IMG/VR virus record: IMGVR_UViG_3300042558_002277
Span: 1 to 46,318 of that record
Source of the DNA: a virus
Reading direction: 5' to 3' (one strand)
Length of the DNA stretch: 46,318 bases
The notes under the pieces were generated by a model. The model saw only the letters and a program-made list of their open reading frames with translations. It had not been told where the DNA came from and did not search any database. Of this stretch, positions 6,765 through 39,672 are shown one piece after another (position 1 is the stretch's first letter; each line of letters starts with the position of its first letter). A program made the translations under genes and the position numbers.

Positions 6765-6800
6765 TTGACAGTGATACACCCATAGTGTAATATCTAATAC
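6765..6800 (+). promoter_or_regulatory. Box promoter, leaderless, for 6801
   Basis: -35 TTGACA (6765-6770), 17-nt spacer GTGATACACCCATAGTG, -10 TAATAT (6788-6793). The ATG at 6801 lies 7 nt after the -10, so the transcript should begin at or next to the start codon. Confidence 0.8.
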
Positions 6801-7043
6801 ATGAAGGAAACATACCTACATAGCGACATGACACTACGGGAAACAATCACCCACCTAGTCGCAACAGAACGAGAAGCACGAAGCAGATTCCGATGGGGGT
6901 CACCATGTCGCCTCATCCGCACAATAGACATCCTCGTACACATCGTTCTCCCCGAACTAATAGAAGATGCAATGCCTCAGACAACCAAATACCTGAGAAG
7001 CACAAGCCCCCGATGGGGACGCTCATGGAGAGAGTGGGACTAA
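6801..7043 (+). CDS. Unknown protein, leaderless mRNA
   Basis: 80 aa, basic and rich in Arg/Trp at the C-terminus (SPRWGRSWREWD). There is no Shine-Dalgarno sequence; the ATG coincides with the predicted transcription start. The stop overlaps the stop of the convergent gene (CTAA at 7040-7043). No family. Confidence 0.6.
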   Translation: MKETYLHSDMTLRETITHLVATEREARSRFRWGSPCRLIRTIDILVHIVLPELIEDAMPQTTKYLRSTSPRWGRSWREWD

Positions 7044-7258
7044 CCCGCTCTCCACTTGCGGGCGTTGTACGCATGAATCCCAATGTACGCAACAGCACCA
7101 AAGATAAACCCATACTGCCTAGTGACTAGCGCATACCCAATCCACAGGCACTCATTCAGAGCAGTGACACCCCACGCCCACCAATACCTGCGCCCAACCA
7201 GCAGAAGCCCCGTCACACCAATACATGACAACACCCACGACCAGAGTTGCTCACTCAT
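7040..7258 (-). CDS. Small membrane protein
   Basis: 72 aa with about three hydrophobic segments: residues 6-22, WWAWGVTALNECLWIGYALV (about 25-44) and FIFGAVAYIGIHAYNARKW near the C-terminus. The layout resembles small actinophage membrane proteins of unknown role. The ATG overlaps the end of the upstream 27-aa gene by 8 nt (ATGAGTGA). Confidence 0.65.
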   Translation of the reverse strand: MSEQLWSWVLSCIGVTGLLLVGRRYWWAWGVTALNECLWIGYALVTRQYGFIFGAVAYIGIHAYNARKWRAG

Positions 7259-7334
7259 CAAACAACATAGACAGCAGTATCACAATCCCAGCAAGAAGAG
7301 GAACCGCAAAGAACAAACGGACAAACCAAATCAT
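7251..7334 (-). CDS. 27-aa single-span membrane peptide
   Basis: MIWFVRLFFAVPLLAGIVIL followed by LSMLFDE, one hydrophobic helix. Its ATG overlaps the stop of the MazG-like gene (ATGA), and its end overlaps the next start by 8 nt. This chain of overlaps argues that it is translated. Function unknown. Confidence 0.55.
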   Translation of the reverse strand: MIWFVRLFFAVPLLAGIVILLSMLFDE

Positions 7335-7678
7335 CGGGTATCGCCGTCACCGCCAATGACCCCACGGGTATCACGGTCACCAAGTTTATCCAAGTTCATA
7401 ACAGCCACATCAGACAAATCAGTCTCAAGTTCAGTAGCAACCATAGCCACATACCAAAGCACATCACCCAACTCAGCCAGCAACACAGCCTTACGCTCAG
7501 AGGAAATAACACCACCCTCATCACGGATAGCCTTCTTCAGTTTCCCAGCAACCTCGCCAGCCTCAGAAGCCATACCGAGGACTGTATAGACAAGTCCTGA
7601 CTCCTTCGGGTACTTAGCAGTCGTGGAGGCAAACATTTGGTAATCGTCAATATTCATGGGCGTGACTCTATCACTCAC
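7331..7678 (-). CDS. MazG-like nucleotide pyrophosphohydrolase
   Basis: 115 aa. It has the all-alpha NTP pyrophosphatase pattern: LGMASEAGEVAGKLKKAIRD supplies the first E-x-x-E pair and LLAELGDVLWYVAMVATEL the downstream E-x-x-D. The end KLGDRDTRGVIGGDGDTR matches the KL..R..RG....GD.R tail of phage MazG-like enzymes. These hydrolyse (d)NTPs or alarmones to monophosphates and may alter nucleotide pools or ppGpp during infection. The GTG at 7678 overlaps the previous stop (GTGAGTGA); an ATG at 7657 is the alternative. Confidence 0.85.
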   Translation of the reverse strand: MSDRVTPMNIDDYQMFASTTAKYPKESGLVYTVLGMASEAGEVAGKLKKAIRDEGGVISSERKAVLLAELGDVLWYVAMVATELETDLSDVAVMNLDKLGDRDTRGVIGGDGDTR

Positions 7679-7925
7679 TTACCCACTGCCATGAACCGTC
7701 CTGATTCAGAACCATGTACTGAGGAGCGACACACTTAGTGACATCTACGGGTGCATCAGATGCCCACAGAGCAGGTGAAGCGGAGACGATGCGGATATCG
7801 CATAGTGGGGTGTCGTCACCGAAGTAACTGACGAATCCGAGGAGTAGACCTAGTGCTAAGCCTCCCCACACTGTTGTGCGAACGAGGCTACGGATGGTGT
7901 AGTAGATAGGGGCGTGTTTCTTCAT
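7671..7925 (-). CDS. Single-span membrane protein
   Basis: 84 aa. A basic N-terminus (MKKHAPIYYTIRSLVR) and a hydrophobic segment (VWGGLALGLLLGFVSYF, about 19-35) are followed by an outward-facing tail with two Cys. It is an anchored or secreted protein of unknown role. It is first in a four-gene operon (7925 to 7040) and appears leaderless. Confidence 0.65.
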   Translation of the reverse strand: MKKHAPIYYTIRSLVRTTVWGGLALGLLLGFVSYFGDDTPLCDIRIVSASPALWASDAPVDVTKCVAPQYMVLNQDGSWQWVSE

Positions 7926-7961
7926 GTGGATAAGTATTACACACGGGTGTATCCATGTCAA
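7926..7961 (-). promoter_or_regulatory. Box promoter, leaderless, for the 7925 operon
   Basis: On the minus strand: TTGACA (7961-7956), 16-nt spacer containing GGATACACCC, -10 TAATAC (7939-7934), then TTATCCAC and ATG. Confidence 0.75.
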
Positions 7962-7964
7962 GGA

Positions 7965-13769: not shown

Positions 13770-14452
13770 GGGCAGACCTTACCGAACTCCACCCATGCTT
13801 TCCAAGTTTCTGGCATTTGTTCAGCGAATAACTTTTCTACTGCGTCTGCAAACTCACGAATTTCACGCTGTGCGTTCGGGTCGGTGCGTAAAGCGAGAAA
13901 GTTCATCAAAGACCTTGCGTTTACTGTCCAATAAAACTGTGTATACATAGAAACAGGAAGAACCATGCGGGCAACTTCCTTCGCTACACCTGACTGAACA
14001 AGATGTGCGTATGTTTCGTATGCTTTTTCATTTACGGAAGCAATCATCTCGACTGTGCTTTTCGCCAATTTTTCATCAACTGGTTCAAATGTGTATGCGC
14101 CTGGCTTTCCGACCTGGGTGCGGATTGCTGACTCGTCTGGGGTGAAGAATTCGTTCGGGACTTCTGAGTACCGTGCAGAGAACTCGTTGAAGGAACCGAT
14201 GCGATGACGGAACCATTCTCGTGCTACAAACACTGGGCACTTGACATGAAAACGAAATGCGTTATGTTCAAACGGTGTTCCGTGATGTTCACGCATTAAA
14301 AACTTAATAAGTCCTTTGTCTGCGCCAGTTAATTCGCCATGAAGTTCGCTTTGTTTTGCAAAACTTACTCGTGCTGAGTTGATAACTGATTCGTCGTCCG
14401 CCATTGATGCGTCCAGACGGACAAAGCCGTCGCTGATGTTTAGTTGGTTCAT
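13766..14452 (-). CDS. thyX: Flavin-dependent thymidylate synthase ThyX
   Basis: 228 aa. The diagnostic ThyX motif RHRxxSxNExSxRY is present as RHRIGSFNEFSARY (82-95). It makes dTMP from dUMP using methylene-tetrahydrofolate and FADH2, independently of host ThyA. LPVSMYTQFYWTVNARSLMN then FLALR is the conserved C-terminal active-site helix. Full length for the family. It is coupled to the WhiB gene and primase gene by ATGA overlaps, consistent with nucleotide supply for replication. Confidence 0.95.
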   Translation of the reverse strand: MNQLNISDGFVRLDASMADDESVINSARVSFAKQSELHGELTGADKGLIKFLMREHHGTPFEHNAFRFHVKCPVFVAREWFRHRIGSFNEFSARYSEVPNEFFTPDESAIRTQVGKPGAYTFEPVDEKLAKSTVEMIASVNEKAYETYAHLVQSGVAKEVARMVLPVSMYTQFYWTVNARSLMNFLALRTDPNAQREIREFADAVEKLFAEQMPETWKAWVEFGKVCP

Positions 14453-14772
14453 ACGGAGTCCCGCTCTTTGTCTAATCGGCGTGATGCACGCCTTGTTGAG
14501 TTGCTAATAGATGAAAGTGCTTCGGCAGTTAAATGAATATTTCTGCGTCGGCGTTCTAGTTCTCGTTCGGATTCTCGCAATCCGCCCCATATTCCATGAG
14601 TTTCGTTTGGTAATGAATACATCAAACACGCATTACGAACTGCGCATTGGTTGCAAATCTTTACTGCGGTTCGCCCGTTTCTGATTGCTGTAACGCTTTT
14701 GTCTGGATACCACCAGTCTGTGGGGTAATCCCGACACGCACCTTTTTCAGCATCAAAAGTAATTTCTGGCAT
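14449..14772 (-). CDS. WhiB-like Fe-S transcription regulator 1
   Basis: 107 aa. Four Cys at 13, 40, 43 and 49 (C..CxxCxxxxxC) bind a [4Fe-4S] cluster, followed by GIWGG (60-64) and a basic C-terminus (LERRRRN) for DNA contact. WhiB proteins are confined to actinobacteria and their phages and act through region 4 of the primary sigma factor. It may redirect host or phage promoters. Confidence 0.93.
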   Translation of the reverse strand: MPEITFDAEKGACRDYPTDWWYPDKSVTAIRNGRTAVKICNQCAVRNACLMYSLPNETHGIWGGLRESERELERRRRNIHLTAEALSSISNSTRRASRRLDKERDSV

Positions 14773-14819: not shown

Positions 14820-15281
14820 TCAAACTGCTTTTCTGTCAGCCTTTGGGTCACGAATTTCGTAAAGCCCACGCTTCAGTTTGCGGAAAAGGTCAGGTCGGTC
14901 TCCGATGAACTTGAGTGCTGTCGGATATGAAATCTCACCAATCTCCATGATTGTGTTTGCAGTTATCTGCTCAAAAACATGCTCTTGTGTCCAGTCAATG
15001 ATTGACTGATACTTGTCAGTGCGCTTTTGGCGCTTAGAGAAAATCTCTGACTCCTCAGGTAGTTCGCTCAGATAGAAACCCCATACACGCCTGTCAATAG
15101 AGTAAGTCCTAAAGACCTCTGTTGGTGTCGTGGATGGATTAGAAAGAAGTGCATAGCCAGCACGGAGTCGTTCCCCTGCAAGGTATTGCTCCTCTGTTGG
15201 TACTTCCGATGGGTTACCGTACTCGTCAATGAGTGCGGTAATCGTTTCCTTGTATATGCGTGAGATTACTTCTGTATTCAC
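14820..15281 (-). CDS. Unknown protein, 153 aa
   Basis: Helical, charged protein (MNTEVISRIYKETITALIDE...) with a C-terminal basic section (LFRKLKRGLYEIRDPKADRK). NTIMEIGEISYPTALKFIGD reads like a winged-helix or HTH recognition region, so DNA binding is possible but unproven. The ATG overlaps the previous gene's TGA. Second gene of the replication operon. Confidence 0.6.
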   Translation of the reverse strand: MNTEVISRIYKETITALIDEYGNPSEVPTEEQYLAGERLRAGYALLSNPSTTPTEVFRTYSIDRRVWGFYLSELPEESEIFSKRQKRTDKYQSIIDWTQEHVFEQITANTIMEIGEISYPTALKFIGDRPDLFRKLKRGLYEIRDPKADRKAV

Positions 15282-15541: not shown

Positions 15542-15603
15542 GTTTAGTAGTCCTCCTTGTGAACCATTGAGATAACTTTATCAGAAGGGTGTGTCAAAAG
15601 CAA
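15542..15603 (-). promoter_or_regulatory. Box promoter of the replication operon
   Basis: Minus strand: -35 TTGCTT, 17-nt spacer TTGACACACCCTTCTGA, -10 TAAAGT (15580-15575), then a leader with AAGGAGGACTACTAAAC before the ATG. It is the only promoter seen for 15541 to 9028. The leader has a reduced ACTACTA version of the leader word. Confidence 0.7.
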
Positions 15604-16046: not shown

Positions 16047-16108
16047 TTGACTTTGATACACCCATGTTGTAAGATGTTCTACATAACCTACTAGATGAAA
16101 GGAACATC
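16047..16108 (+). promoter_or_regulatory. Box promoter for 16109
   Basis: TTGACT (16047-16052), spacer TTGATACACCCATGTTG, -10 TAAGAT (16070-16075). The leader has AACCTACTAGA then GAAAGGA. Confidence 0.85.
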
Positions 16109-16790: not shown

Positions 16791-16859
16791 TTGACAATGA
16801 CACACCCTTTTGGTATGATTTATCCATAACTACTAGACGCACCTGAGGAGGTGAACTAA
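16791..16859 (+). promoter_or_regulatory. Box promoter for the metallophosphatase
   Basis: TTGACA (16791-16796), spacer ATGACACACCCTTTTGG, -10 TATGAT (16814-16819). The leader holds ATAACTACTAGA and a very strong GAGGAGGTG site. Confidence 0.85.
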
Positions 16860-20034: not shown

Positions 20035-20107
20035 GCCTTACCTTTCTAATAAAACAAACCTTATGGCTTGTTGAGATAAGTTTATCGGGTTACGACTGGT
20101 TTGTCAA
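20035..20107 (-). promoter_or_regulatory. Box-less promoter for the DUF932 gene
   Basis: Minus strand TTGACA (20107-20102), 17 nt, TAAACT (20084-20079), with a leader ending AGAAAGGTAAGGC before the ATG. The -10 region (GATAAACTTATCTCAA) resembles that of the 15541 promoter. Confidence 0.75.
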
Positions 20108-21889: not shown

Positions 21890-21924
21890 ACACACATCTT
21901 ACAGCAGGGGTGTATCAATGTCAA
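21890..21924 (-). promoter_or_regulatory. Box promoter, leaderless, for 21889
   Basis: Minus strand TTGACA (21924-21919), spacer TTGATACACCCCTGCTG, -10 TAAGAT (21901-21896), six bases, ATG. One of the best matches to the full consensus. Confidence 0.85.
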
Positions 21925-22311: not shown

Positions 22312-22372
22312 TTTCTATTTTCCTTTTTCTAGTAGGTAATTACATCTTACTGCAAGGGTGTGTCGGGGTAAT
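22312..22372 (-). promoter_or_regulatory. Box promoter for 22311
   Basis: Minus strand spacer CCGACACACCCTTGCAG, -10 TAAGAT (22349-22344), leader TTACCTACTAGAAAAAGGA. The -35 position reads ATTACC. Confidence 0.75.
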
Positions 22373-22587: not shown

Positions 22588-24504
22588 TTAGGTCAAACCC
22601 CGTTGCGTGAAAAGACCAACAAGAGCAGAACCAAGACTCTCACCCACCGCAACACCGCCCTCAGTCGCTGCGTCCACAATGCTTCGCTTCTTCTCAATCA
22701 AGTCGAACATATGTTCGTCAATAGTCCCCTCGCACAGCAGATAGGTAACGACAACGCTTCCCTTCTGTCCAAGTCGGTGACAGCGTGAATAAGTTTGGTC
22801 AAGGTCGCTTGGTGTCCACGGCAGTTCCATGAAAATCACATCTTGCGCCGCCGTCAAAGTGTGCCCAGTCTTTGCGGCTTGGATGCTCAGCACCATCACA
22901 GGAGCAGTCCCGACAGGTTCTTCCTGAAAACGGGACTTACACGCCTCAACATCTTCGATGTCCATTCCGCCCTGAATTTTCAGGTTTCCGAACTTCGCTG
23001 CTAATTCATCAACAATGTCTCGGTGATGTGCGGCAATAACAACTTTTTGTCCAGCCTCAATGTGTTGCTCGATGATTTCCATTGCTGCTGGCATCTTTGC
23101 TTTTGCAGAAAGGCGACGCAAAACAGACATTTCAACAAGTGCTTGGTTGTATTCGGCTTTGATTCGTGCAAGAACAGCAGCAGATTTTGGTGATTTTCCA
23201 ATTTCTTCAGCAATTCTTCTGGCTTGCTCAACCAGATATTCAACAATGTCGTCCTCGGCTTTCTTGTATTCCCGCATCGCCGCATCCGTCCCGCTTACAT
23301 AAACAGGATTATGTCGTACTGGCGGCAGGTCCAGAAGAACTTGGTCTTTGGTGCGTCGGATGTAGCAGTTTCCACGCAACTTTTCGTTTAATTCATCCAT
23401 GTGGCTGTGTCCAGAAATGTTCCATTGACCAAATCTGTCTCGAAATGCACCGCAATACCTTCGGTAAAAACCCCAAAGCCCGCCGAAATCATCAAGTTTT
23501 CCAAGTGCATCGAGTTGCGGTCCGTATTCGGCTGGGCGATTCGTGATTGGTGTCCCAGTGAGGCAAAGAACAACTCCGTCTTGCGGGGCTGATTTGGCTA
23601 TCTTGATGGCTGATTTGGTGCGTTGAGCCGTCGGGGATTTGATGTAGTGGGACTCGTCAAAGACATAACCGTTGTGGTTGATGAGTTGTTTCTGCCAAGT
23701 TTGTATGTTGGAGTAACCAATTACCAGCACTTCGTATTCGGTGTCTGGGAAGTCTTTGCGGTTTGTAACCGTCACAACCTTTCGGTTGGGTAACCACTTT
23801 GCATATTCTTTTGCCCAGTTCAGGACAAGGTTAGGTGGACACACTATAACAGAGGGGTATGTCATGGTTGTTTCCAGCGTTGCAATCGCCTGAAGAGTTT
23901 TTCCAAGTCCCATGTCGTCAGCAATAAAACATCTTCTGGCTGCCGCTGCGTATTCAACACCTGCTCGTTGATATGGAAGCAATGGGAGCCCCGCCACATC
24001 TATCGTTCCTTCTGTAGCGCGGGACTTCTCTACCGACGACTGATGCTTGTTACGGAGGTCCTGAGACAACTGCGCCAGGTCTTCTGGGAGAACTTCACGA
24101 AACTTGCTTGCCCAATCGATTACTTCGTGGATGGAACTCAGGGGAGCACGCCATGCTTTGGTCTTTGCGTGCCAAGTTATGCTCGCAATTGTCTTTACGG
24201 CTTTGACTTTTACTGGGTCATACGCAAAACTTAGGTAAATCCAGTCATCTTCTTTGGTGATTCCAAATACATTGTTGTCGGGCCTTGGCAAATCAAACAG
24301 TAAAACTTCTGGTTCTATGTCAAACTCGTGTTTTGTTGCGTAGTCCCGCGTTTCGTTGAGGCTTGTCATCGGGACTCTCCAGACTTTTGCGAGTTTGTCC
24401 CACTTTGCGCCGTCTATTTGTTTGATTTCTGCGACCTGAAGTGCGTCGTATGGGAAATCCAGAATGAGATGGTCGTCGTTGAGGAAAAGTCGTGAAGTCG
24501 TCAT
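22588..24504 (-). CDS. SNF2-family DNA translocase with two HARP-like repeats
   Basis: 638 aa. Residues about 11-45 and 87-121 are two copies of one unit (LILDFPYDALQVAEIK...WRVP and IYLSFAYDPVKVKAVK...WRAP) resembling the HARP domains of SMARCAL1/HARP annealing helicases. The SNF2 core follows with DDMGLGKT (196-203, Walker A), VFDESHYIK (DExH), LTGTPITNRP and the final TYSRCHRLGQKG motif VI. Eukaryotic relatives rewind RPA-coated ssDNA and remodel forks. ATG 24504 is chosen because the upstream extension runs through the repeat at 24541. Three palindromes and one LexA-type box lie inside the gene. Confidence 0.88.
   Translation of the reverse strand: MTTSRLFLNDDHLILDFPYDALQVAEIKQIDGAKWDKLAKVWRVPMTSLNETRDYATKHEFDIEPEVLLFDLPRPDNNVFGITKEDDWIYLSFAYDPVKVKAVKTIASITWHAKTKAWRAPLSSIHEVIDWASKFREVLPEDLAQLSQDLRNKHQSSVEKSRATEGTIDVAGLPLLPYQRAGVEYAAAARRCFIADDMGLGKTLQAIATLETTMTYPSVIVCPPNLVLNWAKEYAKWLPNRKVVTVTNRKDFPDTEYEVLVIGYSNIQTWQKQLINHNGYVFDESHYIKSPTAQRTKSAIKIAKSAPQDGVVLCLTGTPITNRPAEYGPQLDALGKLDDFGGLWGFYRRYCGAFRDRFGQWNISGHSHMDELNEKLRGNCYIRRTKDQVLLDLPPVRHNPVYVSGTDAAMREYKKAEDDIVEYLVEQARRIAEEIGKSPKSAAVLARIKAEYNQALVEMSVLRRLSAKAKMPAAMEIIEQHIEAGQKVVIAAHHRDIVDELAAKFGNLKIQGGMDIEDVEACKSRFQEEPVGTAPVMVLSIQAAKTGHTLTAAQDVIFMELPWTPSDLDQTYSRCHRLGQKGSVVVTYLLCEGTIDEHMFDLIEKKRSIVDAATEGGVAVGESLGSALVGLFTQRGLT
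22704..22717. promoter_or_regulatory. LexA-type box inside the SNF2 gene
   Basis: CGAACATATGTTCG in the C-terminal coding region; function doubtful at this place but it matches the consensus perfectly. Confidence 0.45.
22906..22937. repeat. AGYCCCG/CGGGRCT palindrome
   Basis: AGTCCCG (22906-22912) and CGGGACT (22931-22937), perfect 7-bp arms, inside the SNF2 gene. Confidence 0.6.
23987..24026. repeat. AGYCCCGC/GCGGGRCT palindrome
   Basis: AGCCCCGC (23987-23994) and GCGGGACT (24019-24026), inside the SNF2 gene. Confidence 0.65.
24342..24376. repeat. AGYCCCG/CGGGRCT palindrome
   Basis: AGTCCCG (24342-24348) and CGGGACT (24370-24376), inside the SNF2 gene. Confidence 0.6.
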
Positions 24505-24563: not shown

Positions 24564-24645
24564 TTGGGATTGACACACCCCCCTGATATTCTTTGTGTAT
24601 CGCTTGACAGCCCGTCAAGCCTGACCCACATGAAAGGTGGCTCCG
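24564..24645 (+). promoter_or_regulatory. Box promoter for 24646 with hairpin leader
   Basis: TTGGGA (24564-24569), spacer TTGACACACCCCCCTGA, -10 TATTCT (24587-24592). The leader lacks ACCTACTA; instead it has a CTTGAC...GTCAAG hairpin and GAAAGGTGG. Confidence 0.7.
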
Positions 24646-26064: not shown

Positions 26065-26124
26065 GATTTTCCTTTCATGTTTAGTAGGTAAGCACATTGT
26101 ACTGGGTGGGTGTGTCAGGGTCAA
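26065..26124 (-). promoter_or_regulatory. Box promoter for 26064
   Basis: Minus strand TTGACC (26124-26119), spacer CTGACACACCCACCCAG, -10 TACAAT (26101-26096), leader TTACCTACTAAAC then GAAAGGA. Confidence 0.85.
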
Positions 26125-26136: not shown

Positions 26137-26194
26137 CTATCCGTGATACACCCCTGCGGTATCATGTACGCATACCTACTAGACAGGAGAAAAA
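26137..26194 (+). promoter_or_regulatory. Box promoter for 26195
   Basis: Spacer GTGATACACCCCTGCGG, -10 TATCAT (26160-26165), leader CATACCTACTAGACAGGAG. It is back-to-back with the 26064 promoter; the two -35 regions are 12 nt apart. Confidence 0.8.
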
Positions 26195-26799: not shown

Positions 26800-26856
26800 A
26801 GTGTTCCTTTCTAGTAGGTATGGCACAAGTGTACCAAAGGGGTATGTCATAGATAG
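26800..26856 (-). promoter_or_regulatory. Box promoter for 26799
   Basis: Minus strand spacer ATGACATACCCCTTTGG, -10 TACACT (26833-26828), leader CATACCTACTAGAAAGGA. The -35 is weak (CTATCT). Confidence 0.75.
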
Positions 26857-26870: not shown

Positions 26871-26905
26871 TTGACATTGACGCACCCTTCTGTCATAATC
26901 TATGT
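26871..26905 (+). promoter_or_regulatory. Box promoter, leaderless, for 26906
   Basis: TTGACA (26871-26876), spacer TTGACGCACCCTTCTGT, -10 CATAAT (26894-26899), six bases, ATG. Confidence 0.85.
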
Positions 26906-27118
26906 ATGAATTATTTACGACTAGACAAAGTGCTACGCCATTTAGAGCGTCACGCTTCGGTTAGCACCTACTACAAAGGTCTACTCCGTCAGTACGAATT
27001 GCTAGGACGACTCTCTGAGAAACAAATAGCAAGCGTGGAAAGAGCGATGGCGCAGGACGAACAAAGGGCGCAGGCTCAGGCACGGCGTAACATTCTGGAG
27101 TGGGACTCTACCCACTAA
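26906..27118 (+). CDS. Unknown helical protein, leaderless mRNA
   Basis: 70 aa. MNYLRLDKVLRHLERHASVS then LRQYELLGRLSEKQIASVER resembles the N-terminal helical module of the 24646 protein (RLSDKQEASARSMYEK versus RLSEKQIASVERAMAQ), suggesting a shared domain. No Shine-Dalgarno. Confidence 0.65.
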   Translation: MNYLRLDKVLRHLERHASVSTYYKGLLRQYELLGRLSEKQIASVERAMAQDEQRAQAQARRNILEWDSTH

Positions 27119-27175
27119 CTCCGACACACCCCTGCGATATAATAATCGCATACCTACTAGACAAAGGAAAAAATA
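27115..27175 (+). promoter_or_regulatory. Box promoter for 27176
   Basis: Spacer CCGACACACCCCTGCGA, consensus -10 TATAAT (27138-27143), leader CATACCTACTAGACAAAGGA. It begins over the stop codon of 26906-27118. Confidence 0.85.
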
Positions 27176-27595: not shown

Positions 27596-27630
27596 ATAAC
27601 CTTGATACACCCTGCTGTCAAACTACACAC
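27596..27630 (+). promoter_or_regulatory. Box promoter, leaderless, for 27631
   Basis: ATAACC at -35, spacer TTGATACACCCTGCTGT, -10 CAAACT (27619-27624), six bases, ATG. Confidence 0.7.
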
Positions 27631-27716: not shown

Positions 27717-27779
27717 TTGACCTTGATACACCCCTAGTGTAATATCTACTACATACCTACTAAACCAAAAGGAACAGCG
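27717..27779 (+). promoter_or_regulatory. Box promoter for 27780
   Basis: TTGACC (27717-27722), spacer TTGATACACCCCTAGTG, -10 TAATAT (27740-27745), leader CATACCTACTAAAC then AAAAGGA. Best full-length representative of the class. Confidence 0.9.
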
Positions 27780-28253
27780 ATGAAAGTTTTACTCCGCAAC
27801 CACATTTACACACAAGCCCACAAAAAGAAATTGTCCGTCCCCGCTATTGAGGAAATTGCTCATCAGCGTTCGCAAGTGTTCTACATTCGTGAGAACAAAC
27901 TCGGCAAGTGCGACTCATGCGGAACAGCAAAGGAAGGCTGGAACGGCATCGGAACAATTGACGGAGTGCGCTACGCAATAGAGATGGTTGTCTGTCCTAC
28001 TTGCGGAGATGCACGAACTGTCTACATGATGAACAATGCAGGTTGCACACCTATCCGTCAAGACCAATGGAATGACGGTCAGCGTCGTTTCACACGGCAG
28101 TGTGGCGACTGTGGCAAGTCGTTCACCATCACTGCACAGACTTGGGAGAAGTTGTCTGAACAGACAATGCACAAGTGCAAGAACGGCAAGCGAGTAGACC
28201 TCATTGCTGACGAACACCGAGACATGAAGGGCAAGTATTTCCCGAAAGGGTGA
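27780..28253 (+). CDS. Protein with two zinc-ribbon segments, 157 aa
   Basis: After a basic N-terminus the protein has CDSCG (about 42-46), CPTCGDARTVYMM, CGDCGKSFTITAQTWE and a late HKC. The pairs form two ribbons, as in recruitment or nucleic-acid-binding adaptors. CGDCGKSFTITAQTWEKL resembles the zinc-finger domains attached to phage nucleases. Function unknown. Confidence 0.7.
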   Translation: MKVLLRNHIYTQAHKKKLSVPAIEEIAHQRSQVFYIRENKLGKCDSCGTAKEGWNGIGTIDGVRYAIEMVVCPTCGDARTVYMMNNAGCTPIRQDQWNDGQRRFTRQCGDCGKSFTITAQTWEKLSEQTMHKCKNGKRVDLIADEHRDMKGKYFPKG

Positions 28254-28303
28254 TACACCCCTATGTCATACTGATGACATCACCTACTAGAAAGAAGCAC
28301 GAA
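28244..28303 (+). promoter_or_regulatory. Box promoter for 28304
   Basis: Spacer GTGATACACCCCTATGT, -10 CATACT (28267-28272), leader TCACCTACTAGAAAGAAG. The spacer overlaps the stop codon of 27780-28253. Confidence 0.8.
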
Positions 28304-28710: not shown

Positions 28711-28889
28711 GCAAAGGGCAACGCATCAGGCTTATCCACACCGCAGACCCGTACACACGGCTTGTAGCAGGCGATGAGGGCACTGTAACAAGCATTGACG
28801 ACATGGGTACTGTCCATGTCAAATGGGATAATGGTTCTTCTCTTGGGCTTATTCCACGAGAGGACAGTTGGGTGGTTGTCGGGGAATAA
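28707..28889 (+). CDS. DUF4314-like small beta-barrel protein
   Basis: 60 aa. RIRLIHTADPYTRLVAGDEG then TVTSIDDMGTVHVKWDNGSS and LGLIPREDSW match the DUF4314 pattern (GDEGTV..IDD.GT.HV.WDNG..LGL), a short SH3-like barrel common in phages and mobile elements. Function not established. Coupled to 28501-28710. Confidence 0.8.
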   Translation: MSKGQRIRLIHTADPYTRLVAGDEGTVTSIDDMGTVHVKWDNGSSLGLIPREDSWVVVGE

Positions 28890-28944
28890 CCCCGATACAC
28901 CCGCCTGCCATAATAGAGACATCACCTACTAGACAAAGGAAACC
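28886..28944 (+). promoter_or_regulatory. Box promoter for 28945
   Basis: ATAACC, spacer CCGATACACCCGCCTGC, -10 CATAAT (28909-28914), leader TCACCTACTAGACAAAGGA. The -35 includes the previous TAA. Confidence 0.85.
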
Positions 28945-29422: not shown

Positions 29423-29451
29423 TCAACCTTGACACACCCTTCTGGCATAAT
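29423..29451 (+). promoter_or_regulatory. Orphan box promoter
   Basis: TCAACC, spacer TTGACACACCCTTCTGG, -10 CATAAT (29446-29451). No gene follows within the 30 nt before the next box. Confidence 0.7.
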
Positions 29452-29479: not shown

Positions 29480-29508
29480 TAAACCGTGATACACCCCTCT
29501 GATAAAGT
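29480..29508 (+). promoter_or_regulatory. Orphan box promoter
   Basis: TAAACC, spacer GTGATACACCCCTCTGA, -10 TAAAGT (29503-29508). No gene directly downstream. Confidence 0.7.
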
Positions 29509-29538: not shown

Positions 29539-29598
29539 GAAACCCTGATACACCCACCTAGTAAGATGAGTGTTACCTACTAAGCAAAGGAAGAAATA
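29539..29598 (+). promoter_or_regulatory. Box promoter for 29599
   Basis: GAAACC, spacer CTGATACACCCACCTAG, -10 TAAGAT (29562-29567), leader TTACCTACTAAGCAAAGGA. Confidence 0.8.
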
Positions 29599-29781: not shown

Positions 29782-29845
29782 GAAACCCTGACACACCCGC
29801 CTGTCATAATGTTCACATACCTACTAAGCCTAGAAAGAAGGAAAC
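29782..29845 (+). promoter_or_regulatory. Box promoter for 29846
   Basis: GAAACC, spacer CTGACACACCCGCCTGT, -10 CATAAT (29805-29810), leader CATACCTACTAAGCC then GAAAGAAGGA. Confidence 0.8.
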
Positions 29846-30154
29846 ATGAAGTATCCAGAAATCACCGTCCCACTTGTCGGAGAGGACGGAAATGCGTTCT
29901 CAATCCTCGGTCGTGTCTCACGCATCATGCGTCAGAACGGTCTGAAAGACGAGTGGACAGTATTCCACTCAGAAGCAACCTCAGGGGATTACGACAACCT
30001 TCTGCGTACCGTTATGGCGTGGTTCTCTACTGAGACCGACACAGAGGCGGATGAAGAGGAATGGTACGAGAACCACCCCGACGGCTGTTATGACTGCAAG
30101 GAAATCTACGCAGTCGGTGGCTGTCCGTCATGCGGAGACGAGGGCGGGTACTAA
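29846..30154 (+). CDS. Protein with N-terminal nucleotide-binding-like and C-terminal Cys region
   Basis: 102 aa. VPLVGEDGNAFSILGRVSRI and LRTVMAWFSTETDTEAD resemble short domains found in many actinobacterial proteins of unknown role. The C-terminus has CYDCKE...GGCPSCGDEGGY (paired Cys). Own box promoter. Confidence 0.65.
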   Translation: MKYPEITVPLVGEDGNAFSILGRVSRIMRQNGLKDEWTVFHSEATSGDYDNLLRTVMAWFSTETDTEADEEEWYENHPDGCYDCKEIYAVGGCPSCGDEGGY

Positions 30155-30210
30155 CCCTGATACACCCCCCTGTCATAATGTCTACATACCTACTAAACGA
30201 AAGGGACGAA
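30151..30210 (+). promoter_or_regulatory. Box promoter for 30211
   Basis: CTAACC, spacer CTGATACACCCCCCTGT, -10 CATAAT (30174-30179), leader CATACCTACTAAACGAAAGG. Confidence 0.85.
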
Positions 30211-30390
30211 ATGAACGACTACAACAAGTTCGTTATTGAGACTTACCTCAATATTCGTCAGGCAATATCCGAAACCCCATCAGGCGACACAGCAATCTGG
30301 AACGCTCTGGTCGGCTCGCTCAACCTCGCACAAATTGCGCTGAACGAGCAGGGCATCACCCACGAAGAAATTGAGTCTGTCAGAGTTTAA
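30211..30390 (+). CDS. Small helical protein, 59 aa
   Basis: MNDYNKFVIETYLNIRQAIS..., two helices and an acidic end (GITHEEIESVRV). No family recognised. The next box promoter starts over its stop codon. Confidence 0.6.
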   Translation: MNDYNKFVIETYLNIRQAISETPSGDTAIWNALVGSLNLAQIALNEQGITHEEIESVRV

Positions 30391-30415
30391 CCCTGACACA
30401 CCCCCCCGATATAAT
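30387..30415 (+). promoter_or_regulatory. Orphan box promoter
   Basis: TTAACC, spacer CTGACACACCCCCCCGA, consensus -10 TATAAT (30410-30415). It is followed by about 60 nt without a gene, including GGGTA...TACCC, before the next box. Confidence 0.75.
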
Positions 30416-30475: not shown

Positions 30476-30535
30476 GAAACCTTGATACACCCCATTGTTA
30501 TAATGGGGATATACCTACTAAGCAAAGGAAATCAA
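30476..30535 (+). promoter_or_regulatory. Box promoter for 30536
   Basis: GAAACC, spacer TTGATACACCCCATTGT, -10 TATAAT (30499-30504), leader ATACCTACTAAGCAAAGGA. Confidence 0.85.
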
Positions 30536-31519: not shown

Positions 31520-31528
31520 CTACAACTT

Positions 31529-31643: not shown

Positions 31644-31877
31644 ATGACATTACAACTAGAACAAACATGGGAAGGTACTGGTCAGGCGTGGAAGCGTTTG
31701 ATTATTCGCAACTTCTCTGGTGGCGTACAGGGCATCATGATGGATGCTGGTGGGTACATCAAGGACGAAACAATTGACCTTTCTCATCACAAGACTCTTG
31801 ACGAAGCAATCAACGACATAACAAACCGAGACTTGGCGATGTATAACGATGTACTTGTGGACGGCGAAGAAGGCTGA
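31644..31877 (+). CDS. Unknown protein, 77 aa
   Basis: MTLQLEQTWEGTGQAWKRLI, then QGIMMDAGGYIKDETIDLSH. It starts after AAAAGGATTTATTAGAA. A CACCC-GAAA-GGGTG hairpin lies upstream (about 31609). No box is present. No family. Confidence 0.6.
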   Translation: MTLQLEQTWEGTGQAWKRLIIRNFSGGVQGIMMDAGGYIKDETIDLSHHKTLDEAINDITNRDLAMYNDVLVDGEEG

Positions 31878-31923
31878 CACACCCCTCTGTCATAATGACA
31901 GTACCTACTAGAAAAGGAAAAAA
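31868..31923 (+). promoter_or_regulatory. Box promoter for the 31924-33465 operon
   Basis: Spacer CTGACACACCCCTCTGT over the previous stop codon, -10 CATAAT (31891-31896), leader GTACCTACTAGAAAAGGA. Confidence 0.85.
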
Positions 31924-32643: not shown

Positions 32644-32864
32644 TGGCACGATACATCATCCGTTGGGAAATGATTTATGAGGACGCAGAAAACGAGTTTG
32701 ACGCAGTAGCGCAGGCTTACGGACATATCTGCGAAATTGCACAAGACCCATCAGTTGGGGCGAACTTCGTTCAGGTAATCAACCCTGACACACCCAACTG
32801 TCATACTTCAGTCATGTTGGACGAGGCACTTCTCGTCCACGAACTAATGAAAGAGAACATCTAA
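32643..32864 (+). CDS. Unknown protein with a box promoter inside its coding region
   Basis: 73 aa. MARYIIRWEMIYEDAENEFD, then YGHICEIAQDPSVGANFVQV. The segment INPDTPNCHTSVM is encoded by a perfect box promoter, and the in-frame ATG at 32814 stands 6 nt after its -10. A 16-residue C-terminal peptide could be made from a leaderless internal transcript. Confidence 0.6.
   Translation: MARYIIRWEMIYEDAENEFDAVAQAYGHICEIAQDPSVGANFVQVINPDTPNCHTSVMLDEALLVHELMKENI
32779..32813 (+). promoter_or_regulatory. Intragenic box promoter
   Basis: TCAACC, spacer CTGACACACCCAACTGT, -10 CATACT (32802-32807), six bases, in-frame ATG 32814. Also a possible internal start for 32864-33465. Confidence 0.6.
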
Positions 32865-33595: not shown

Positions 33596-33629
33596 GATAG
33601 CCAGGCTGTTTCGCATAAATCTTTCCGAT

Positions 33630-33658
33630 TTGACTTTGATACACCCCTGATGTAAGAT
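33630..33658 (+). promoter_or_regulatory. Orphan box promoter with good -35
   Basis: TTGACT, spacer TTGATACACCCCTGATG, -10 TAAGAT (33653-33658). Followed by a 30-nt gap and a second box. Confidence 0.85.
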
Positions 33659-33684
33659 GTGTGTCTGTCGAGGTTGCAGACCAA

Positions 33685-33744
33685 ATAACCTTGATACACC
33701 CCCTTGGTATTCTTGGGGCATACCTACTAAACAAAGGAGTCCAA
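33685..33744 (+). promoter_or_regulatory. Box promoter for 33745
   Basis: ATAACC, spacer TTGATACACCCCCTTGG, -10 TATTCT (33708-33713), leader CATACCTACTAAACAAAGGAG. The gene begins with GTG. Confidence 0.8.
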
Positions 33745-34008
33745 GTGGACATTCAGACCATTAGCACAAAAATCGCAAAGGGAGTAAAGGGACACCTATT
33801 CTTTGATGGGATGTCTCCCGACTCAGAGACCAACGACTTTGATAGAGGTCAGATGGCACTCAGTATCTTGTTTGAGTTTATCGGTGACAAGAATCTTGAC
33901 CAGTTCACATCAGAGCAGGGACGCAACTTCCTTATTGAGTGTGGCTTAGGTTCAGAAGTCGCACTCCGAATCATCAACAGCGACACAGACCCGCTCTGTA
34001 TCTACTAA
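33745..34008 (+). CDS. Unknown protein, 87 aa, GTG start
   Basis: GTG is chosen because it lies 8 nt after AAAGGAG in the conserved leader and no ATG is near. DIQTISTKIAKGVKGHLFFD, then MALSILFEFIGDKNLDQFTS. No family. Confidence 0.6.
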   Translation: MDIQTISTKIAKGVKGHLFFDGMSPDSETNDFDRGQMALSILFEFIGDKNLDQFTSEQGRNFLIECGLGSEVALRIINSDTDPLCIY

Positions 34009-34065
34009 CCACGACACACCCCCTCGCTACAATGTGGCATACCTACTAAATCTAAAGGAAATCAA
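34005..34065 (+). promoter_or_regulatory. Box promoter for 34066
   Basis: CTAACC, spacer ACGACACACCCCCTCGC, -10 TACAAT (34028-34033), leader CATACCTACTAAATC then AAAGGA. Confidence 0.85.
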
Positions 34066-34401
34066 ATGACAACAGCACTACTAATCAAGACCGATGGTGA
34101 ACTCAGCAAAGTAACCATCACAGAAGGCTCAGAAGGACTTTACGAACTCCAAGGGCATGTTGGCGGATACATCGATTGTGTTCGTGGAGAAGACATCGTT
34201 GGCTATGTGAACGATGAAGGCATCATCATGGGGCTTGAGTACAACCTCGTTGCTTCATCACTCTTCCAGCGTCACCTCTTCGGAGATGTAGTCGTTGTGG
34301 GCGCATACGATAAGGACGGCGTTTATGACGGCGCTAACTACGACATCCCATCGTGGCTCGGCGCAATCGTGTCAGACAACCTTGACACACCCGTCCGATA
34401 A
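34066..34401 (+). CDS. DUF3846-like protein, 111 aa
   Basis: MTTALLIKTDGELSKVTITE, YELQGHVGGYIDCVRGEDIV, GIIMGLEYNLVASSLFQRHL. The series LQ..VGGYI....V...D.V.YVN.EG...GL..N..A is the pattern I associate with DUF3846-type phage proteins. The next promoter overlaps its last codons (NLDTPVR is encoded by the box). Confidence 0.68.
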   Translation: MTTALLIKTDGELSKVTITEGSEGLYELQGHVGGYIDCVRGEDIVGYVNDEGIIMGLEYNLVASSLFQRHLFGDVVVVGAYDKDGVYDGANYDIPSWLGAIVSDNLDTPVR

Positions 34402-34433
34402 ACTTATTTGCATACCTACTAGAAAGACACAAA
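34376..34433 (+). promoter_or_regulatory. Box promoter for 34434, inside the previous gene's end
   Basis: ACAACC, spacer TTGACACACCCGTCCGA, -10 TAAACT (34399-34404), leader CATACCTACTAGAAAGA. Confidence 0.8.
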
Positions 34434-34655
34434 ATGCAGAACATTGACCGAGCATTCCAAGACATGATGGACTTGGGAGACAAGTTAGAGGCAGTCGCAG
34501 AACAATACGACGCTTCAGACCGATTCAAGGAAGAGTTCCTGCTTTGGCAAGATGGCGGAGATGGGACAGAAGAGCAATACACCGCTTCTGCTCGCTACGA
34601 AATCAACCTAGAGCGTTACGCAGACGAGTTGTACCCCCCTGAGGACTACAAATAA
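34434..34655 (+). CDS. Unknown helical protein, 73 aa
   Basis: MQNIDRAFQDMMDLGDKLEA then DRFKEEFLLWQDGGDGTEEQ. Acidic and helical. No family. Confidence 0.6.
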   Translation: MQNIDRAFQDMMDLGDKLEAVAEQYDASDRFKEEFLLWQDGGDGTEEQYTASARYEINLERYADELYPPEDYK

Positions 34656-34680
34656 CCCTGACACACCCCCCATATATAAT
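34652..34680 (+). promoter_or_regulatory. Orphan box promoter upstream of the MoxR gene
   Basis: ATAACC, spacer CTGACACACCCCCCATA, consensus -10 TATAAT (34675-34680). No ACCTACTA directly follows. Confidence 0.75.
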
Positions 34681-34717
34681 TAGGGGACAAGGCAGAGAAC
34701 AAGAAGTATCCGCCGAT

Positions 34718-34797
34718 TTGACAGGACATAACAAACCTGTCATACTAATCAAGTCGGGCAACCGACATACCTACTAAACACAGAAAGCAATAAACCT
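34718..34797 (+). promoter_or_regulatory. Box-less promoter for the MoxR gene
   Basis: TTGACA (34718-34723), 17 nt without box, -10 CATACT (34741-34746). The leader has a GTCGG-GCAA-CCGAC hairpin and then CATACCTACTAAAC. Together with the upstream box promoter this gives the MoxR gene two promoters of different type. Confidence 0.7.
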
Positions 34798-35514: not shown

Positions 35515-35525
35515 TAGGTAGCAGG

Positions 35526-35617
35526 GAAACCCTGATACACCCCTAAAGTAAAATGGTGTGTATCGGGGTGACCCGCCAACTAGACCAACTACTAAACCTA
35601 GAAAGAGAGAAAACCAA
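35526..35617 (+). promoter_or_regulatory. Box promoter for the VWA gene
   Basis: GAAACC, spacer CTGATACACCCCTAAAG, -10 TAAAAT (35549-35554), longer leader (about 57 nt) with ACTACTAAACC and GAAAGAGAG. Confidence 0.75.
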
Positions 35618-37105: not shown

Positions 37106-37208
37106 AAGGTCGGGGAGGGAAACCTCCCCACCAGCCAATCATGGTTTGGTCACCGTGATAGAGAGAGTGGAGAACTTTACTCCTTTCACTCCACTCGCTC
37201 CGATATGT

Positions 37209-37228
37209 CCCACCCCTTCGGGGGTGGG
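37209..37228. terminator. Hairpin between convergent genes
   Basis: CCCACCCC-TTCG-GGGGTGGG, a strong stem without a T tract on either side, between the VWA gene and the convergent 37240 gene. Confidence 0.5.
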
Positions 37229-37239
37229 CATTGTCGTAT

Positions 37240-37542
37240 CTAGCGGTCTTTCAGAAGACGACCAAAAGTAAATGTGTCGTATGCTCGCCAAAAAACATAG
37301 AGAGCACCGACAGATAGCGCGTTGCGATATGTAAGGTCAAAATCAAGGATGAGAGAGACCAACATAAGTGCTAACGCGTTGACGCTCGAAATAAGAAGAA
37401 AGCCAATAAGGGCTTTGATAATTATTCCGATTCCCATCGCAACAGAAGCGGTGGTGTTGTCTTCCACGACTGGTGCCTTCCATTCAACTTTGCGTCCGCT
37501 ACTACGGTCGCTTGGGAAACTAGGGTTCTTCCAATCGCTCAT
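37240..37542 (-). CDS. Membrane protein, holin-size
   Basis: 100 aa. A polar N-terminus (about 1-30) is followed by hydrophobic segments at about 34-52 (MGIGIIIKALIGFLLISSV) and 54-68 (ALALMLVSLILDF), with a possible third at 76-88. A holin is possible by size and topology, but the lysin is 16 kb away, so the function is unassigned. ATGA overlap with 37539-37922. Confidence 0.6.
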   Translation of the reverse strand: MSDWKNPSFPSDRSSGRKVEWKAPVVEDNTTASVAMGIGIIIKALIGFLLISSVNALALMLVSLILDFDLTYRNALSVGALYVFWRAYDTFTFGRLLKDR

Positions 37543-37922
37543 GCTTGACGACGGGCAATCTGATGGACACGCTGACGAGATACGCCGACCTGCTCAGCGA
37601 TTGCCTGGAGGCTTTTACCCTCTGAACGGAGACGGAGAATCTGCTCGTCACGCTCATTGTTGCTCGCAGGGCCAGGACGCAGTGGGCCCCAGGTCCAACC
37701 AGTGAGGCTTTGCAAACGCTCAACTCGTGCTGGCGACAGGATTCCCGTGCGGTAACGCTGTCTCATGTAACCGACCCATGCGCCGATAGGGGCATTGTTT
37801 CCTTCGTGGAGTTCTACATGGCTGGCTGGCACACGGGCGTTTCCTGTGCGGGTGGTGTATTGGGCGAGGGCTTGGAAGTTCCTCTCCCATCTGTCTGTGT
37901 TTGGGATGCGTGTTTCGCTCAT
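37539..37922 (-). CDS. Helicase-associated-domain plus HTH protein
   Basis: 127 aa. Residues 14-80 match the short helicase-associated (HA) domain: NFQALAQYTTRTGNARVPAS, GAWVGYMRQRYRTGILSPAR and LTGWTWGP. The C-terminus is a helix-turn-helix (EGKSLQAIAEQVGVSRQRVH) like sigma region 4 or resolvase DNA-binding ends. It could recognise the repeated promoter elements, which is testable; no direct evidence. No box promoter lies upstream. Confidence 0.78.
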   Translation of the reverse strand: MSETRIPNTDRWERNFQALAQYTTRTGNARVPASHVELHEGNNAPIGAWVGYMRQRYRTGILSPARVERLQSLTGWTWGPLRPGPASNNERDEQILRLRSEGKSLQAIAEQVGVSRQRVHQIARRQA

Positions 37923-37982
37923 GACACGAACACTAGTTGGTAACTCTTGACTTGTCTACTCATCTGCAATGTTTTTATCCAG

Positions 37983-38016
37983 AAGCCCCGCCGCTGCCGC
38001 AGAGGTGGGCGGGACT
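37983..38016. repeat. AGYCCCGC/GCGGGRCT palindrome
   Basis: AAGCCCCGCC (37983-37992) and GGCGGGACT (38008-38016), 15-nt loop, intergenic. Confidence 0.65.
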
Positions 38017-38158
38017 CTCGTGTTGTTTCAGGATGTCGGGGCTCGTGCGTAACTGAAATGGGTGAAACGCGTAACTGTGTGAAAATCTAGACGCGGGCGG
38101 ACGATGCGGGTGGTTTTGTTTGGAACGCAAAAAGTGATTTTTTGGAACGCTGTCCCCA

Positions 38159-38187
38159 GAAACCCTGACACACCCCTTTGATATCCT
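38159..38187 (+). promoter_or_regulatory. Orphan box promoter
   Basis: GAAACC, spacer CTGACACACCCCTTTGA, -10 TATCCT (38182-38187). It is 40 nt upstream of the second box. Confidence 0.7.
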
Positions 38188-38221
38188 GTGTGGGTTCCGA
38201 TAAATCTGTCGGGATAAAAAG

Positions 38222-38281
38222 TTGTTTTTGATACACCCAGGGTGTAAGATAGATAACACATACCTACTAGAAAGAAAATCA
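38222..38281 (+). promoter_or_regulatory. Box promoter for 38282
   Basis: TTGTTT, spacer TTGATACACCCAGGGTG, -10 TAAGAT (38245-38250), leader CATACCTACTAGAAAGA. Confidence 0.85.
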
Positions 38282-38476
38282 ATGAAACAAATTATTCTCA
38301 ACCCAGTCGTAGTTGTCACTATCGACGATGACGACATCACAGTTGATATGAACTTCTATTCTTCAATAGTAGAAGCGATGGATGATGACGGCGAGTTCCG
38401 TGAAGTAACCGATGAAGAACGAACCTTTATTGATGAGAGGGTTCTCCCCTTCATCCAGAAGGAAATCAATCTCTGA
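38282..38476 (+). CDS. Unknown acidic protein, 64 aa
   Basis: MKQIILNPVVVVTIDDDDIT, then SIVEAMDDDGEFREVTDEER. Beta then acidic. The next promoter overlaps its stop. Confidence 0.6.
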   Translation: MKQIILNPVVVVTIDDDDITVDMNFYSSIVEAMDDDGEFREVTDEERTFIDERVLPFIQKEINL

Positions 38477-38526
38477 TACACCCCTGGTGTAAGATGAGTT
38501 CCAATACCTACTAGAAAAGGAAAACA
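38467..38526 (+). promoter_or_regulatory. Box promoter for 38527
   Basis: Spacer CTGATACACCCCTGGTG, -10 TAAGAT (38490-38495), leader ATACCTACTAGAAAAGGA. Confidence 0.85.
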
Positions 38527-38949
38527 ATGGGTTATTCAGCAGAAAAGATTTACGGAGATGAAATCTCCATCCCAATGACAAAAGCAGTGGAGTTCGTAGA
38601 ACTTCTCCGCAAAGGGCAAAAAGACTACGGACACATCTCATGGTGTGAATCAGTAGAAGTGTACGAAGCACGCTTAGACAATAAGTATCCCACCATCGTT
38701 GAGGCAATTATGACCGACTATGGCTTCCTCACTACATGGGATGACAACGCAGAGAATGTTGTCCTCTACTCATGGGGTGGAGACAAGATTGGCTCATCTT
38801 GGGACAATGTATGGGACGCAATCACTCAGGTCGTGGAGCACGATGTTCTGTGGGTCATGGTTGGTGAAGACCAGCAGGTATGGGCAGAGCGTTTGTCTAA
38901 TGGTAAGCGAGTCTCCGATTCGGTGGACTTCACTCAGTTGGTGAAGTAA
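38527..38949 (+). CDS. Unknown protein, 140 aa
   Basis: MGYSAEKIYGDEISIPMTKA, YEARLDNKYPTIVEAIMTDY, VVLYSWGGDKIGSSWDNVWD, an alternating beta/alpha protein ending DSVDFTQLVK. No family recognised. Confidence 0.65.
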   Translation: MGYSAEKIYGDEISIPMTKAVEFVELLRKGQKDYGHISWCESVEVYEARLDNKYPTIVEAIMTDYGFLTTWDDNAENVVLYSWGGDKIGSSWDNVWDAITQVVEHDVLWVMVGEDQQVWAERLSNGKRVSDSVDFTQLVK

Positions 38950-39007
38950 CCCCGACACACCCCTCATATAAACTTATTCACACACACCTACTAGACGGAG
39001 AAAAACA
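38946..39007 (+). promoter_or_regulatory. Box promoter for 39008
   Basis: GTAACC, spacer CCGACACACCCCTCATA, -10 TAAACT (38969-38974), leader CACACCTACTAGACGGAG. Confidence 0.8.
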
Positions 39008-39313
39008 ATGAAATCAGTATTCAACATCACAGTCACATGGAAAGCGTTTGAGAAGTCACTCGGCATCGGAGAGGCTGTTACATCAGCGACAGTTTCATAC
39101 GAAGCACACCACGAAACAGACGACACCGACATTTGCGAATGGGTCTTCCGAGACACAAACAAGTATCAAGGCTCATTCTGGGATTTGGTTGAACCGCTCC
39201 TCCCTGAGAACCGCACACACACAGCATTGTCTGTTGGTGATGAGGTTGAGGTGAACGGAATCGTTTATCGATGCGAAGGTGCTGGCTGGCAACCAGTAGC
39301 AGTCGCTGAATAA
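39008..39313 (+). CDS. Unknown protein, 101 aa
   Basis: MKSVFNITVTWKAFEKSLGI, VSYEAHHETDDTDICEWVFR, ending YRCEGAGWQPVAVAE. Beta-rich. No family. Confidence 0.62.
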   Translation: MKSVFNITVTWKAFEKSLGIGEAVTSATVSYEAHHETDDTDICEWVFRDTNKYQGSFWDLVEPLLPENRTHTALSVGDEVEVNGIVYRCEGAGWQPVAVAE

Positions 39314-39369
39314 CCCTGATACACCCCCATGTCATACTTGGGATACACCTACTAAACAAAGGAAACAAA
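39310..39369 (+). promoter_or_regulatory. Box promoter for 39370
   Basis: ATAACC, spacer CTGATACACCCCCATGT, -10 CATACT (39333-39338), leader CACCTACTAAACAAAGGA. Confidence 0.85.
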
Positions 39370-39618
39370 ATGCAAAGACATACAGGAATCGAATGTGTAA
39401 TCGTTTGGACGGACAGTCCTGACGGCGAAGAAGATGTTTTTATCTCCTTCCAACCAGAGGAGTTTGACACAAAATCAGACTTGGAGACTTTCTACTACTT
39501 CGATGAAGAAGAAGTTGCTGGATTGATGAAAGCGATTGCAGACCGTCGTGAGCGTTACTCAGTAAACAAAGAGTGGTGGATTGAACTACTCTGCGACTAT
39601 GCGCTGGTCATAAAGTAA
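39370..39618 (+). CDS. Unknown protein, 82 aa
   Basis: MQRHTGIECVIVWTDSPDGE, then YFDEEEVAGLMKAIADRRER and WWIELLCDYALVIK. Acidic beta-alpha protein. No family. Confidence 0.6.
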   Translation: MQRHTGIECVIVWTDSPDGEEDVFISFQPEEFDTKSDLETFYYFDEEEVAGLMKAIADRRERYSVNKEWWIELLCDYALVIK

Positions 39619-39672
39619 CCCTGACACACCCTTCGGATAAAATTATCCACACCTACTAGAAAGCAGACAGAA
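39615..39672 (+). promoter_or_regulatory. Box promoter for 39673
   Basis: GTAACC, spacer CTGACACACCCTTCGGA, -10 TAAAAT (39638-39643), leader CACACCTACTAGAAAGCAG. Confidence 0.8.

Follow-up and report, generated by a model that had tools for sequence, protein, structure and literature searches.

A conserved element in the promoter spacer that may take the place of the -35 hexamer at 39 sites of a putative actinobacterial virus

The window analyzed here, the 46,318-nucleotide stretch of IMG/VR virus record IMGVR_UViG_3300042558_002277, harbors 39 sites at which a short asymmetric element, TGAYACACCC, lies between the -35 position and a -10 hexamer. Judged from sequence, these sites are best read as a class of phage promoters in which a -10 suited to the host sigma-A is combined with a phage element that replaces the -35 and is recognized by a phage-encoded activator, a reading to which a probability of roughly 0.55 is given. 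The host is probably an actinobacterium on account of an RPF-like transglycosylase, WhiB, ThyX, matches to actinophages, and one contig of an actinobacterial metagenome-assembled genome.

To delineate the element, YTGAYACACCC-like sites served as seeds for a position weight matrix that was iterated over the window and was stable after one round. At convergence, it recovers 39 sites between positions 6765 and 39643 with scores of 19.7-40.5, compared with 8.0 for the best non-site. Thirty-two are on the plus strand and seven on the minus strand, and each element is oriented with its promoter. The first-pass annotation, which had described about 39 promoters on both strands, was right in count, coordinates, and description of the class. 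The spacer from the -35 position to the -10 is 17 nucleotides, and the element occupies positions of approximately -28 to -19. Invariant or nearly invariant columns are the G-A and ACACCC of the element, together with the second A of the -10 and its last T. The flanks vary freely among sites, as do the six bases that separate element and -10, and the element is the strictest part of these promoters. The pattern GAYACACCC-N7-ANNNT occurs 36 times in the window, whereas 100 shuffles gave 0.03 on average and never more than 1. GAYACACCC is present 37 times in total, 36 of them with the A...T of a -10 at one fixed distance, and ACACCC is paired with A...T 37 times at a spacing of 7 nucleotides versus 0-6 times at other spacings. 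The set holds up overall as predicted promoters, with three corrections (site names as in Table 1). The two weakest members are 23865-, which lies within the SNF2-helicase reading frame, and 7955-, whose -10 is shifted by about one base, while 24570+ overlaps the annotated 5′ end of the same helicase gene.

The -10 is of the host type, TAnnnT, and is often preceded by TGn, the extended -10 being found at 20 of the 39 sites. The -35 position is occupied by TTGACN at nine sites, by nnAAC[CT] at 21, and by other sequences at nine, such that 30 promoters lack TTGAC. The five good -35 hexamers already listed (6765, 16047, 21924, 27717, and 33630) are correct, but TTGAC is also found at 7955-, 16797+, 26118-, and 26877+. 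The proposal that nnAACC is often built from the preceding gene's TAA stop plus CC is likewise borne out, as the stop of the upstream open reading frame (ORF) falls inside the -35 zone, as the TAA of TAACC, at 10 sites; at 4-5 further sites, the TGA of the element itself doubles as the stop of the upstream gene. A downstream ORF start was located for 37 sites, mostly an ATG 27-35 nucleotides after the -10. At four sites (6771, 7955, 21918, and 26877) the ATG follows the -10 by 6-7 nucleotides, the pattern expected of leaderless messages. A leader, ACCTACTAR.AAAGGA, is common downstream of element promoters, and presumably resembles an extended Shine-Dalgarno sequence for the actinobacterial 16S end.

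Gene starts found by this leader alone provide a comparison for the -35. All four of the convincing starts that lack the element have TTGACA, whereas TTGAC is present at only nine of the 39 sites with it (Fisher p 0.006), and on this basis the element seems, as a tendency, to substitute for that hexamer. Ordinary element-free TTGAC promoters of the window are located at 2158+, 3434+, 14823-, 20107-, 39918+, 40659+, and 43171+. Two genes for regulator candidates also have predicted promoters without the element, namely, those for the WhiB-like protein A (WhiB-A) and for a protein that joins a helicase-associated (HA) domain to a sigma-region-4-like helix-turn-helix (HTH) and is referred to here as HA-r4, the promoter of the latter being TAGACA-N17-TAGTGT.

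The element is under selection, as is visible when promoters of the window are compared with their orthologues in G001 (23 pairs) and G002 (17 pairs), two of its relatives. Change per base within the element (Y left out) amounts to 0.005 in G001 and 0.039 in G002, and the A and T of the -10 show 0.000 change in both. The corresponding values are 0.25 and 0.37 for the upstream flank and 0.10 and 0.31 for the six bases between the element and the -10.

Equal frequency in the host, a finding that the first-pass annotation had named as speaking against its proposal, is not what the likely hosts show. In 198 genomes of the Actinomycetes class (896 Mb), the class of the actinobacterial genome that carries a related phage gene, the pattern is at background, with 166 matches versus 112 for a reversed control and at most six per genome. 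This corresponds to 0.009 per window length versus 36 in the window.

The relatives are all IMG/VR records, many of them fragmentary. Five (G001, G002, G005, G006, and G007) share both the element and its spacing with the window, with a different leader in G006 and G007. Lineages with other elements were reached from the HA-r4 protein, the helicase, and the primase, and at least 10 related lineages have the same architecture with an element of their own, their refined models giving 15-40 sites each. Among these elements are nnAACT rTGTnACACCC in G019/G023 and YTGTCACACCC-N6-TACACT in G027, where the element and TACACT are kept without any -35. Others are TGCGCY followed by GRATGA (G003/G004), TGGTAT CTGTCCTGTG (G018), TTGT..TATAACCGA immediately 5′ of the -10 (G036/G038), TTGT..TACTACCGA (G033/G034), CTTATTACGG (G035), CATTATTGCCTG directly followed by TAAGGT (G021/G022), and AGATAAGTCTG (L186; eight sites, weak). 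The -35 hexamer is absorbed into the element in G003/G004 (TGCGCY), G018 (TGGTAT), and L186 (AGATAA), while lineages C, D, G021/22, and G033 retain TTG and have their element directly next to the -10. Thus, the element changes between lineages and shifts within the spacer, the -10 staying host-like. Element-free TTGACA-N17-TAnnnT promoters are also used in G019/L030, and one lineage with the HA-r4 gene, G040, has plain promoters of this type. Contigs of this element-free lineage (G040-42) lack whole modules, so that gene presence or absence relative to it says little about the reader. Named phages gave no DNA match to the promoter array. A conserved spacer is, as had been suspected, not a feature of the primary sigma factor, being at background in the host set, absent from the TTGACA promoters of the same phage, and swapped in relatives.

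It is proposed that the primary sigma factor of the host, bound to RNA polymerase, would recognize the -10, with the preceding TGn where present, while TGAYACACCC would supply the usual contribution of the -35. The reader of the element would contact the polymerase and be either an activator encoded by the phage or a complex of host sigma and a phage protein, following the logic of the T4 MotA box. The element-free TTGACA promoters, including those of the WhiB-A and HA-r4 genes, might fire first, after which the element promoters, usually a single one for each small gene, would be switched on together. An activator replacing the -35 contact would explain why the geometry is fixed within each phage, why the -35 has been lost, and why the regulator genes have promoters without the element. 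The MotA-like substitution raised by the first-pass annotation is therefore the interpretation that fits best, and its suggestion of one regulon over most of the small-gene array is reasonable.

HA-r4 is an attractive candidate for this role because the phage 21 Q protein reads a site in the spacer with a sigma-R4-like HTH (PMC6606751). It matches PF03457 (E 1.9e-16) and, above its cut-off, PF04545, is conserved in G005, G006, and G007, and has a predicted structure with a mean predicted local distance difference test score of 87. However, its recognition helix, SRQRVHQI, and a GAWVGYMRQR segment are nearly constant across lineages with unrelated elements, G040 combines it with TTGACA promoters of the plain type, and in G032, which also encodes it, 17.5 kb revealed no array. 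HA-r4 is therefore unlikely to be the sole specificity factor, but it may be a shared partner. WhiB-A and WhiB-B, three ribbon-helix-helix (RHH) proteins (RHH1-3), and a 153-amino-acid winged-helix protein occur in several lineages, but their DNA-reading parts likewise do not sort with the element. Searches with the structure models of HA-r4 and the 153-amino-acid protein returned only generic HTH or winged-helix matches, none with E < 0.001. No phage-encoded sigma factor was found, sigma region 2 (PF04542) being absent from 18 records. HA-r4 has no tblastn match in named phages, and the isolate phages of the INPHARED set likewise yielded no match to the window protein. More generally, members of its family (L123, L129, and others) are phage proteins of about 125 amino acids in which the two domains are joined, and the HA domain is found in 20 of 43 related records.

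Several observations weigh against an activator that replaces the -35. Nine promoters have a good -35 in addition to the element, both of which an activator would not need. No single contact geometry fits all lineages, those in which the element abuts the -10 being different. Finally, none of the candidates (HA-r4, the WhiB proteins, the three RHH proteins, and the winged-helix protein) tracks the element across lineages, so that no reader was found among them.

The first two points are accommodated by an operator of a phage repressor, in which a monomer would silence all of these promoters by reading the asymmetric element that each contains, the elements differing as immunity types diverge; no single geometry across lineages is then required, and promoters with both the element and a perfect TTGACA do exist. 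The stoperators of cluster A phages offer a precedent, with 20-30 asymmetric copies per genome that are oriented with transcription, lineage-specific in sequence, and read by a monomer (PMC6550527, PMC9283540). Stoperators, however, are mostly not promoter-associated (PMC6550527), while nearly all sites of the window are promoters at a fixed spacing and no bare intergenic copy is seen. Moreover, no lysogeny system was detected, with tyrosine integrase (PF00589), large serine recombinase (PF07508), and ParA (PF13614) not found in 14 related records, some of them fragments but including contigs of 107-151 kb. Nor would mere repression readily explain why most sites have lost the -35. For want of integrase or ParA, and with nearly every site a promoter, repression is unlikely, and the likeness to stoperators noted in the first-pass annotation is not upheld.

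A loading site for an antiterminator of the Q/AlpA type, which would ride the polymerase through terminators, is very unlikely. The position between -35 and -10 and the sigma-R4-like HTH of HA-r4 recall phage 21 Q, and terminator-like hairpins are enriched at 26000-45000 of the window (47 versus 17.4 expected). Nevertheless, the lambda/21 Q binding element is a direct-repeat site at one late promoter with a downstream pause (PMC6606751); in the window, neither such repeats nor, in the columns to about 11 nucleotides past the -10, a conserved -10-like pause (TAnnnT) was seen, there are about 39 promoters instead of one, and the recognition residues of HA-r4 stay nearly constant while elements change. 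Less probable again is that there is no phage reader and the host polymerase itself prefers the element, by way of sigma-A or another host factor, with lineage differences mirroring different hosts. The -10 is ordinary, and the extended form present at about half of the sites can work without a -35, but the background frequency in the 198 genomes and the use of element-free TTGACA-N17-TAnnnT promoters by the same phage, G019/L030, and G040 argue otherwise. That the repeats are recently copied promoter cassettes, arising by duplication with no selected reader, is hardly credible. Tandem promoters and the shared leader would fit copying, yet the element is kept where the adjacent six bases and the flanks vary among sites, and the unequal divergence between orthologues indicates selection. 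An activator that replaces the -35 thus remains the preferred reading, and the different element in most related viruses points to a virus-made switch for the takeover of host transcription.

The nearest described system is that of the start-associated sequences and extended start-associated sequences (SAS and ESAS) of cluster K phages, and the nearest in logic is the T4 MotA box; membership in neither is claimed. In cluster K, nearly identical SigA-like promoters with -35 and -10 separated by 17-18 bp have an extra conserved sequence, followed by a start-proximal sequence, and their function is unknown (PMC3203893, PMC11373665). As in the window, several such promoters precede small non-structural genes. 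Adephagia has seven copies of ESAS, which includes an imperfect inverted repeat of 15-17 bp, and GGGATAGGAGCCC is found at the starts (PMC3203893, PMC11373665). In contrast, the element of the window is asymmetric with no such inverted repeat, it has ACCTACTAR.AAAGGA in place of GGGATAGGAGCCC, and it comprises 39 short in-spacer copies, usually with loss of the -35 and with different elements in at least 10 related lineages. T4 middle promoters share with the window the phage element in place of the -35, the retained host -10, TGn at about half of the sites, and their number in the dozens. The MotA box, however, spans -35 to -26 when placed 13 bp upstream of the -10, and it can vary in sequence next to a strict -10 (PMC2988021), whereas the element of the window differs in position and sequence and is the strictest promoter part. 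MotA/AsiA homologues were not found in the Pfam/PHROGs scans, which were run on part of the proteins of a partial contig. Cluster O actinophages also have more than 30 copies of a repeat per genome, but these 17-bp repeats are palindromic, occur also within genes, and have no fixed promoter spacing (PMC4351075).

Table 1. Element promoters predicted by the motif model and related features, in window coordinates. Site names such as 6771 or 7955- refer to rows 6765..6793 (+), 7933..7961 (-), etc.
Feature	Coordinates	Strand	Remark
Element promoter (6771)	6765..6793	+	-35 TTGACA; leaderless, ATG 7 nt after -10
Element promoter (7955-)	7933..7961	-	TTGACA; leaderless; -10 register shifted by about 1
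WhiB-like protein A, candidate sigma-A partner	14449..14772	-	plain TTGACT promoter
153-aa protein, C-terminal winged helix, candidate regulator	14820..15281	-	
Element promoter	15575..15603	-	before leftward replication operon
Element promoter	16047..16075	+	TTGACT
Element promoter (16797+)	16791..16819	+	TTGACA
Plain promoter without element	20079..20107	-	TTGACA-N17-TAAACT
Element promoter (21918-)	21896..21924	-	TTGACA; leaderless
Element promoter	22344..22372	-	
Element-like site (23865-), doubtful	23843..23871	-	inside SNF2 helicase ORF
Element promoter (24570+)	24564..24592	+	overlaps annotated 5′ end of SNF2 helicase
Element promoter (26118-)	26096..26124	-	TTGACC
Element promoter	26137..26165	+	divergent from 26118-
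Element promoter (26850-)	26828..26856	-	
Element promoter (26877+)	26871..26899	+	TTGACA; leaderless; divergent from 26850-
Element promoter	27115..27143	+	
Element promoter	27596..27624	+	
Element promoter	27717..27745	+	TTGACC
Element promoter	28244..28272	+	element TGA is upstream gene's stop
Element promoter	28886..28914	+	
Element promoter	29423..29451	+	tandem of three, first
Element promoter	29480..29508	+	tandem of three, second
Element promoter	29539..29567	+	tandem of three, third
Element promoter	29782..29810	+	
Element promoter	30151..30179	+	TAA stop in -35 zone
Element promoter	30387..30415	+	top score in window, 40.5
Element promoter	30476..30504	+	
Element promoter	31868..31896	+	
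Element promoter	32779..32807	+	
Element promoter (33636)	33630..33658	+	TTGACT
Element promoter	33685..33713	+	tandem with 33636
Element promoter	34005..34033	+	
Element promoter	34376..34404	+	
Element promoter	34652..34680	+	
Element promoter	35526..35554	+	
HA-r4, candidate RNA polymerase- or DNA-binding regulator	37539..37922	-	own promoter without element
Element promoter	38159..38187	+	
Element promoter	38222..38250	+	
Element promoter	38467..38495	+	element TGA is upstream stop
Element promoter	38946..38974	+	
Element promoter	39310..39338	+	
Element promoter	39615..39643	+	
Plain promoter without element	39918..39947	+	TTGACA-N18-TACAAT
WhiB-like protein B	44737..45048	-	

The window contains a second repeated motif, GACGGTGGCGKAWAGC, with an invariant core of GACGGTGGCG and no Rfam match. 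Its 12 copies (0.13 expected) are all oriented with transcription and are located at 24541, 26543, 29354, 31529, 33586, 36332, 40695, 41360, 41815, 42165, 42565, and 42947 (all +). The motif is also found in G005, G018, G019, G023, and G038, and in G018 it lies immediately upstream of array promoters. The gene of an AAA_5 (MoxR-like) ATPase adjoins that of a 515-amino-acid protein of unknown family (34798-35514 and 35558-37105), a pair that recurs in many related contigs. A tRNA-Lys(TTT) at 21947-22020 (-) adjoins the leaderless element promoter 21918-. Genes at 34-954, 45061-45657, and 19009-20034 encode histone-deacetylase-like, HslV-peptidase-like, and DUF932 proteins, respectively.

Taken further, and only tentatively, these lineages may constitute a large uncultured group of actinobacterial phages in which a lineage-specific element is read by a DNA-binding protein of an undescribed family, the whole set of 15-40 promoters having been replaced several times while shifting between the -35 and -10 sides. 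A standard promoter scan misses most promoters of this kind, as the sigma-70 scan of 26000-45000 of the window yields 19 promoter-like matches versus 18.2 expected, which is chance level. How phages redirect the host polymerase to their own promoters is known in detail for only a handful of models, T4 and lambda among them. In the actinobacterial group, a single architecture exists in at least 10 natural variants, each genome having 15-40 matched sites. This makes it possible to study the joint change of a regulator and its dozens of sites, as well as the contacts that can replace the -35.

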